NCBI RefSeq assembly: GCF_900102615.1
Contig: NZ_FMYV01000004.1
Location: 161,643-225,642 of the forward strand
Direction: 5' to 3'
DNA: 64,000 nucleotides
Source of the DNA: Geotoga petraea
GTDB lineage: Bacteria > Thermotogota > Thermotogae > Petrotogales > Petrotogaceae
Part shown: in pieces, positions 47,344 through 54,034 of the stretch
How the letters are laid out: the number at the start of each line of letters is the position of its first letter
Position numbering within the stretch: position 1 is the stretch's first letter
The notes under the pieces: generated by a model
What the model was told of the DNA's origin: nothing
Seen by the model: the letters and a program-made list of their open reading frames with translations, nothing else
The model's database searches: none
Position numbers and translations under genes: made by a program

Positions 47344-47420
47344 GGTGGCTATAGTTCAGTTGGCAGAACGCCGGACTGTGACTCCGGACGTCGTGGGTTC
47401 AAGTCCCACTAGCCACCCCA
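47344..47420 (+). tRNA. tRNA-His, anticodon GTG
   Basis: 77 nt including the extra G at position -1 opposite C73; acceptor GTGGCTA/TAGCCAC; anticodon arm CCGGA-CTGTGAC-TCCGG. G34 makes it a Tgt substrate. Confidence 0.96.
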
Positions 47421-52956: not shown

Positions 52957-52965
52957 TGTTATAAT
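52957..52965 (+). promoter_or_regulatory. Extended -10 promoter for a short transcript
   Basis: TGTTATAAT is an extended -10 (TG-N-TATAAT). No good -35 hexamer is present at 17 bp, which extended -10 promoters can do without. Confidence 0.5.
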
Positions 52966-52971
52966 GATTAT

Positions 52972-53045
52972 TAATTGTAAGTAACCCCCTATACAAATAG
53001 ATCCCCCATCCTTTAATAGGAGCTGATACAGCTCCTATTTTTTTT
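52972..53045 (+). ncRNA. Candidate small RNA with C-rich segments
   Basis: From the predicted start near 52972 to the terminator is about 74 nt. There is no open frame of note. Two C-rich stretches (TAACCCCCTATA and GATCCCCCATCC) precede the terminator hairpin and should be single stranded. C-rich unpaired motifs of this type bind Shine-Dalgarno sequences in known regulators such as RsaE/RoxS. The first is complementary over 12 nt to the binding site of the histidine kinase gene at 1290-1301. Alternatively this is a terminated leader of the por operon. Inferred, not proven. Confidence 0.45.
53015..53045 (+). terminator. Strong plus-strand terminator with no gene before it
   Basis: AATAGGAGCTG-ATAC-AGCTCCTATT (one-base offset) followed by eight T. 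On the minus strand the hairpin has no T tract. The nearest plus-strand gene upstream is the tRNA cluster, more than 5 kb away with its own terminator. Confidence 0.85.
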
Positions 53046-53458
53046 GTGGTAAAATATTCTCGAGAAAAGAAAGTTTATATAAAACAAATGTAAAATAAAT
53101 CTAAAAAGTTTATATAGTTTTTAAGAACTACAAACATATTATAGAGATAAATTAATCGATTTGTAAGCCCTTTTTCCCGATAAAATAAGTCGTAATATAT
53201 TGAAAGGCTTTAAGGAATTTCAAGAAAAAGGAAACATTCAAATGATAATATGTAATAGTAGGAATAATTGTTTACTTTTTTTAAAAGTACGAAATAAAAT
53301 AAGAATTTTTAAATTAATTGTAAAATAAAAATTATTCACAAATATTAAGAGAATTTTTTCATTTAGTATCATCAAATTTTTATTTTTTAATATATAATAG
53401 AAATAGTAAAGATTTTATTTCTTCATACCAGAACTCATTTTGAAAGGAGGGCATTCTA
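53046..53458. other. Gene-free por leader region
   Basis: About 410 bp, very AT-rich, without a supportable gene. A TATAAT at 53393-53398 is the best -10 for porG, with no clear -35. Several short runs of T and A suggest a curved upstream region. I see no riboswitch that I recognise. Confidence 0.5.
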
Positions 53459-54034
53459 GTGCCAGAAAAATATTTTGAAGTAAGATGGCATGCAAGAGCA
53501 GGACAAGGAGCAAAAAGTGCTTCCCAATTCTTAGCTGAAGCTGCTCTTGATGCTGGCAAATATTCAACTTCATTTCCTGAATACGGAGCTGAAAGATCAG
53601 GTGCACCAATGAAGGCTTTCAACAGAATTTCTGATATTCCTGTAAGAGTTAGGAGTAATGTTGAAAAACCTGATATTGTATTAGTCATTGATGATACTTT
53701 ACTTGGCAATCCTGAATTAACAGCTGGGTTAGATGAAGACAAACCGTTAGTTGTAAACACCCTTATGGAACCATCCAAGGTTAGAGAATTAACGGGATTT
53801 AAAGGTAAAATTGCTGTTGTACCAGCAACAGATATTGCACTAGAAGAAATAAAAAGAGGTATCCCAAACACGGTAATGATTGGTGCTTTGGTTAAATTAA
53901 CAGAAATTGTACCTCTTGATTCAGTTAAAGAAAAAGTTACTGCAGCCTTTTCTCATAAATTCTCTGACGAGGTTGTTGAAGCTAACATGAGAGCTCTTGA
54001 AAGAGGTTACCAGGAGGTGAAAATCGATGGCTGA
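53459..54034 (+). CDS. porG: Pyruvate:ferredoxin oxidoreductase gamma subunit
   Basis: 191 residues from a GTG eight bases after AAAGGAGGG. RWHARAGQGAKSASQFLAEAAL and SFPEYGAERSGAPMKAFNRIS are hallmarks of the gamma domain. Together with PorD, A and B it oxidises pyruvate to acetyl-CoA and reduces ferredoxin, the central anaerobic reaction. First gene of porGDAB, overlapping porD by 8 bp. Confidence 0.96.
   Translation: MPEKYFEVRWHARAGQGAKSASQFLAEAALDAGKYSTSFPEYGAERSGAPMKAFNRISDIPVRVRSNVEKPDIVLVIDDTLLGNPELTAGLDEDKPLVVNTLMEPSKVRELTGFKGKIAVVPATDIALEEIKRGIPNTVMIGALVKLTEIVPLDSVKEKVTAAFSHKFSDEVVEANMRALERGYQEVKIDG

Follow-up and report, generated by a model that had tools for sequence, protein, structure and literature searches.

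A predicted C-rich small RNA beside ompH in Geotoga petraea and its probable relatives across Thermotogota

The interval between ompH and porG

The DNA analysed here (the window) is a stretch of 64,000 nt from Geotoga petraea (GCF_900102615.1, contig NZ_FMYV01000004.1, positions 161,643-225,642, forward strand; genome G000 in our set). Between a minus-strand gene called ompH and plus-strand porG it contains a predicted C-rich small RNA (sRNA), divergent from ompH. The features of the locus are collected in Table 1, together with two copies of a related RNA found elsewhere.

Table 1 Features of the ompH-porG interval and two canonical copies of the related RNA
Feature	Position	Strand	Basis or remark
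ompH, divergent neighbour, 170 aa	52286..52798	-	adjoins the sRNA in four genera
Extended -10 promoter element TGTTATAAT	52957..52965	+	TG 52957-52958, TATAAT 52960-52965; read from sequence
Predicted C-rich sRNA, about 74 nt, ompH-linked copy	52972..53045	+	blastn and model R2
C-run 1 AACCCCCUAU, CCCCC	52985..52989	+	CCCC or CCCCC in all ompH-linked copies
Possible small hairpin CUAU-ACAA-AUAG, between the C-runs	52989..53000	+	sequence and folds
C-run 2 GAUCCCCCA, CCCCC	53003..53007	+	kept in g1, g5 and g8 ompH-linked copies
Intrinsic terminator, 11-bp stem, 3-nt loop, T6	53015..53045	+	terminator scan, folds
Decayed remnant of a glucan-branching-enzyme-like gene (SRNILKGFKEFQEKGNIQMIICN)	53179..53256	+	blastn; translation aligned by eye
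porG, present-day downstream gene, outside the sRNA unit	53459..54034	+	each further genus examined has another downstream gene
Canonical copy, G. petraea	G000:C1:123556-123632 (L110)		a radical SAM gene (Pfam) begins about 15 nt past its end
Canonical copy, T. maritima	L165, G090 C1:934662-934730; about complement 934662-934737 of AE000512 if G090 is MSB8	-	carries GACCCCCC

The terminator, with arms AATAGGAGCTG (53015-53025) and CAGCTCCTATT (53029-53039), an ATA loop and T6 up to 53045, ranked top of the four sites that a terminator scan found in 5 kb, where 1.8 were expected. It ends 413 bp before the porG start codon, and the preceding plus-strand gene is a tRNA ending at 47417; both agree with the original prediction, made from the sequence alone, of a strong terminator about 410 bp upstream of porG and more than 5 kb without an upstream plus-strand gene. 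The extended -10 and the transcript of about 74 nt that it had proposed were likewise recovered, the length assuming a predicted start about 7 nt past the -10. No good -35 element was found at 17 nt from the extended -10; a listed 10/12 promoter (TTGTCA-18-TACAAT) sits 8 nt upstream of the extended -10 and overlaps it. No plus-strand open reading frame of at least 40 aa overlaps 52966-53046.

The predicted fold of the RNA has an energy of -16.4 kcal/mol compared with -6.1 for shuffled sequences (z -4.9), a value equalled by 0 of 200 shuffles. As had been claimed, two CCCCC segments precede the terminator hairpin and are mostly unpaired in the predicted folds. The hairpin between them has 7 bp in the corresponding copy of G004, a genome of another genus in the same family, and in the window copy a rival weak fold competes with it. 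With its own promoter and terminator and without an open reading frame, the element, as read from the sequence, is probably an independent gene whose product is a small regulatory RNA of about 74 nt.

The locus also carries a trace of its history. The remnant downstream of the sRNA is 82-84% identical over 74-78 nt (blastn, E about 1e-15) to G004 and to a second relative, G001, in both of which a glucan-branching-enzyme-like gene comes after a DUF4912 gene. No DUF4912 gene was found in the G. petraea genome. From the remnant and this absence we infer that the ancestral order was most likely ompH - sRNA - DUF4912 - branching enzyme, the last two genes having been deleted and the sRNA retained, a loss that would account for the empty 413 bp before porG. 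The sRNA is older than its present porG neighbour.

Copies beside ompH in other genera

A blastn comparison of a 131-nt region with 41 relatives gave one clear match outside the G. petraea genome, at 74% identity in G004 (E 2.2e-9), where the sRNA is likewise divergent from ompH. The G004 copy retains GUAAGUAACCCCCUAU...AUAGAUCCCCCA; its C-runs enclose a longer hairpin, and its terminator stem is different yet intact. When ompH loci were taken from all 38 genomes of the order, ompH with a divergent sRNA was also found in two g8 and seven Marinitoga (g6) genomes, so that the same anatomy is kept in four genera (g1, g5, g8 and Marinitoga). The sequence varies by genus, g8 copies reading ACCCCUAUCCCCCUUGAGUAUAAAUCCCCCACCC and Marinitoga copies ACCCCUAUCCUCCUUAA. 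The extended -10 is kept in G. petraea, G004 (TGATATAAT) and g8 (TGTTACAAT in G007 and G011). The sRNA is followed by porG in the window, by DUF4912 in G004 and g8, and by other genes or opposite-strand genes in Marinitoga. In g3, g4 and g7 a SpoU-like gene occupies the ompH locus instead, with no sRNA there.

Within the ten ompH-linked copies, covariation in the terminator was not above that of shuffles (153/500). A scan for related loci with the ompH protein as query returned no match, and outside G. petraea and G004 the pattern ACCCCC(5-34)ATCCCCC matched only here and there, no more often than the reversed control did.

A related RNA across Thermotogota

A covariance model (R1) of the ten ompH-linked copies revealed a second type of locus in all Marinitoga genomes and in many others. 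Two extra R1 matches in G. petraea, at C1:448497 and C5:214002, were rejected as terminators only. A second model (R2, alignment A3) was built from 17 copies at the second type of locus, here called canonical, and includes no ompH-linked copy. R2 matched 91 of 103 Thermotogota genomes at E <= 0.01, including 76 of the 82 good genomes, and reached E 1.4e-14 in T. maritima (G090, probably MSB8). Seven ompH-linked relatives were tested, and R2 recovered every one with an E-value of 1e-4 or better within 88 kb. Its sole match in the window was 52983-53045 (E 0.0019, 15 bits), and it matched exactly two places in the G. petraea genome, the canonical copy (1.4e-16) and the window copy (0.048). Since R2 was built without ompH-linked copies yet matches the window, the tie to the family is independent of the chain of BLAST matches. 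The conservation of the hairpin and C-rich motifs in relatives, which the original prediction had set beforehand as its check, was thus found at the ompH locus of four genera and in a phylum-wide family. We are highly confident that a conserved sRNA gene family exists in Thermotogota, and equally so that the window copy belongs to it.

The canonical RNA consists of ACCCCCCUAUCCCCCUUGAGAUA, a C-rich linker and a terminator. Petrotogaceae copies read AGAUAGAUCCCCCUAUCCCCCCUGARAUA...terminator, those of other families ACCCCCCUAUCCCCCUUGAGAUACACCCCCCACGG...terminator, and in most families three C-runs precede the terminator (ACCCCCC-UAUC-CCCCUUGA-GAUA-CACCCCCCAC). The most constant part in 75 copies comprises the C-runs and the intervening UAU. 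UAUC and GAUA can form a hairpin around a C-rich loop, for which we claim no formal covariation. Most families have only a weak version of it (-0.5 kcal/mol); Mesotoga, Marinitoga and the second Kosmotoga-type copy (CUAUCC/GGAUAG) have a strong one of 5-6 bp, these genus names being partly inferred. The terminator stems are replaced wholesale across families, with pairing always kept: CCGGAUCC/GGAUCCGG, GCGGGC/GCCCGC, CGGAGC/GCUCCG and GGGACC/GGUCCC. Kosmotoga-type genomes (L175, L178, L200) have two copies, the second with a possible GAGUGC/GCACUC clamp on the C-rich part.

Of 74 distinct upstream regions, 57 carry a TTAACA/GTAACA-type element about 10 nt before the -10, compared with 13 in shuffles. 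In Petrotogaceae canonical copies GTAAC occurs once more, about 20 nt upstream of this element (the element is seen, for example, in L114, L118 and L165).

The neighbours of the canonical gene differ between families, which argues for action in trans. A radical SAM gene lies downstream in G. petraea and G001. By sequence reading, the T. maritima copy lies between a divergent gene for a Pit-type phosphate transporter and one for a serine-dehydrogenase-like/ClpP-like protein, and the canonical copy is convergent with mnmE in Fervidobacterium and Thermosipho and with a MiaB-like gene in Pseudothermotoga.

When 84,980 species were scanned for the exact core pattern CCCCCTATCCCCC(0-2)TGARATA, it occurred at 14 places, all in Thermotogota (Thermosipho, Fervidobacterium, Pseudothermotoga, Marinitoga, Thermotoga and further Thermotogota). 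One contig, JAMOAB010000007.1 (L135), is filed as a Bacillota metagenome-assembled genome; it is 99.4% identical over 2.5 kb to a Petrotogaceae locus (G003) and is therefore misbinned. At the stringency of this pattern, the family looks confined to Thermotogota.

The window copy has an R2 match, lies divergent from ompH, as do clear members in g8 and Marinitoga, and places its terminator directly after the C-rich part. It keeps two of the three canonical C-runs. The uninterrupted core CCCCCUAUCCCCC is absent from it, the window copy reading CCCCCUAUACAAAUAGAUCCCCC, and on that ground it was filed as a diverged paralogue and not as a canonical member; the ompH-linked copies of g8 keep CCCCUAUCCCCC. 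The conserved TTAACA promoter element is also missing from the window copy, and TTAAC is present in the Marinitoga and G004 ompH-linked copies. On this evidence the ompH-linked RNA, which occurs in one group of Petrotogaceae genera, is likely a paralogue of a near-universal Thermotogota C-rich sRNA.

In a survey of sRNAs, one annotated sRNA is given for Thermotogae (PMC9029176, Table 1). The T. maritima transcriptome report describes only a few (12-13) putative non-coding RNAs whose structures were not definable (PMC3636130); the canonical copy may be recorded there as a transcript without having been recognised as part of a family. A literature search found no paper describing such a Thermotogota C-rich RNA. 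Rfam searches of the window and 15 loci gave no relevant family at the gathering threshold and, at E up to 1, sub-threshold matches to MicF, NmsRb and others only; the family is absent from the Rfam catalogue.

Proposed mode of action, alternatives and candidate targets

The RNA is most likely a trans-acting sRNA whose C-runs pair with G-run Shine-Dalgarno sequences. Transcribed from an ompH-linked or a canonical gene, it would expose unpaired C-runs, which would anneal to the G-run Shine-Dalgarno sequences of numerous mRNAs and keep ribosomes off them. We somewhat favour such pairing as its main mode of action; transcription, start site, base-pairing and targets are predictions, and the sequence, its conservation, the family membership and the genomic context are observations. 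The broader proposal, of a C-rich sRNA ancestral to Thermotogota as a whole, its hyperthermophiles too, with a conserved promoter element, acting as a global translational regulator that captures G-run Shine-Dalgarno sequences and duplicated beside ompH in some Petrotogaceae, seems to us evenly balanced. Present in nearly all Thermotogota and located in T. maritima and in cultivable Marinitoga, the family would be the first clear trans-acting sRNA candidate for the phylum, and would make translation control by short C-G pairing near 80 °C open to testing.

The original prediction had likened the C-rich motifs to those of RsaE/RoxS of Staphylococcus and Bacillus. The functional likeness stands: these RNAs too are short, terminator-ended and conserved across genera, and have C-rich motifs that are left unpaired and could engage Shine-Dalgarno sequences. 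Shine-Dalgarno targeting by the window RNA is plausible, with indirect support from the G-run enrichment and the DUF4912 sites described below. No homology was found: the Thermotogota RNA has another core sequence, belongs to another phylum and gave no match to the RsaE/RoxS covariance model in Rfam, at the gathering threshold or with the cutoff relaxed to E 1. IsrR of S. aureus (PMC9410917) and FsrA-type iron-sparing sRNAs are also C-rich RNAs acting near ribosome-binding sites; the window sRNA differs from the IsrR/FsrA/RyhB type in that its promoter has no conserved Fur box. A Fur-box-like site with a 12/14 match (52959-52973) overlaps the sRNA -10. Fur control was rejected, since this match occurs in the window only and relatives score 7-10/14, so that the box is not kept. 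NmsRa/NmsRb (RcoF) of Neisseria resemble the present RNAs in being two sibling sRNAs of much the same size. Among sub-threshold Rfam matches, NmsRb scored highest for the T. maritima copy; at 22.4 bits against a gathering score of 52, that copy is not an NmsRb member.

Three near-identical, regularly spaced C-runs in the strongly conserved context UAUC...UUGAGAUA exceed the needs of anti-Shine-Dalgarno pairing. The RNA might instead act without pairing to mRNA, much as CsrB does on CsrA, by sequestering a C-run-binding protein; this could be of Rho-like, cold-shock or KH type, or be the DUF4912 protein with its Rho_N domain. The DUF4912 protein encoded beside the g8 ompH-linked copy does carry a Rho_N domain; Rho_N is not, however, the part of Rho that contacts C-rich RNA, and G-run Shine-Dalgarno sites are common and present in candidate targets. 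We consider sequestration unlikely. Alternatively, the ompH-linked copy might have begun as a terminated leader, or attenuator, controlling DUF4912 in cis: in G004, G007 and G011 this gene follows it immediately, in the same orientation, and has a ribosome-binding site with G6 or G7. Such an origin is very unlikely given that the Marinitoga locus has other or opposite-strand genes in that place, that G. petraea dropped DUF4912 yet retained the sRNA, and that the canonical copies do not adjoin DUF4912 in the loci examined.

Decay of the window copy, a real family member no longer functional in G. petraea, would explain why it has the lowest R2 score among the copies tested, an interrupted core, no TTAACA element and deleted neighbouring genes. 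Its extended -10, both C-runs and perfect 11-bp terminator are nevertheless intact, and it keeps 74% identity to the G004 copy although the remaining flanks fail to align, which makes decay rather improbable. That the feature is nothing more than a terminator with chance C-runs, for example an attenuator in the leader of porG, with which it shares a strand, is extremely improbable: a model without ompH-linked copies still matches it, and a porG leader was rejected because the sRNA is conserved without porG in all other genomes.

For the preferred reading, pairing with G-run Shine-Dalgarno sequences, targets were sought by sequence-pattern searches. GGGGG(3-12)ATG occurs 355 times in the G. petraea genome compared with 120 for the reversed pattern, about three times chance, and G5 ribosome-binding sites are thus common in this AT-rich genome (window GC 31%). 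The pattern GGGGGATAG(0-13)ATG, which extends the complement of the core, occurs 290 times compared with 135 reversed in 103 genomes (113 and 37 in family f9); most of this excess is expected to come from Shine-Dalgarno sequences as such, in which G-runs are common anyway, a caveat to the pairing reading. ATA is the commonest triplet among GGGGGNNNG sites, mildly above expectation (P 0.02 and 0.13 in two genomes), and the signal of selection on an AUA extension of G-run sites is weak.

Sites of the GGGGGATAG type recur in more than one genome before genes for a 199-aa protein (G077, G080, G081) and a calcineurin-like phosphoesterase (G077, G080). DUF4912 genes bear such a site in G080, G007 and G011, the G011 site GGGGGAUAGGG being an 11-nt perfect complement of the sRNA core. 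DUF4912 ribosome-binding sites contain G5+ in 13 of 28 genomes and G6+ in 8 of 28, up to G7. A sample of 321 genes gave baselines of 11.5% (nominal P 4e-6) and 3.1% (nominal P 2e-6), in a test that treats related genomes as independent and takes its baseline genomes from among those with G-run sites. As a sign of targeting, this enrichment is suggestive. Unusually long G-run ribosome-binding sites are seen in the DUF4912 genes of L279 and L264-L270, one of the encoded proteins having a Rho_N domain.
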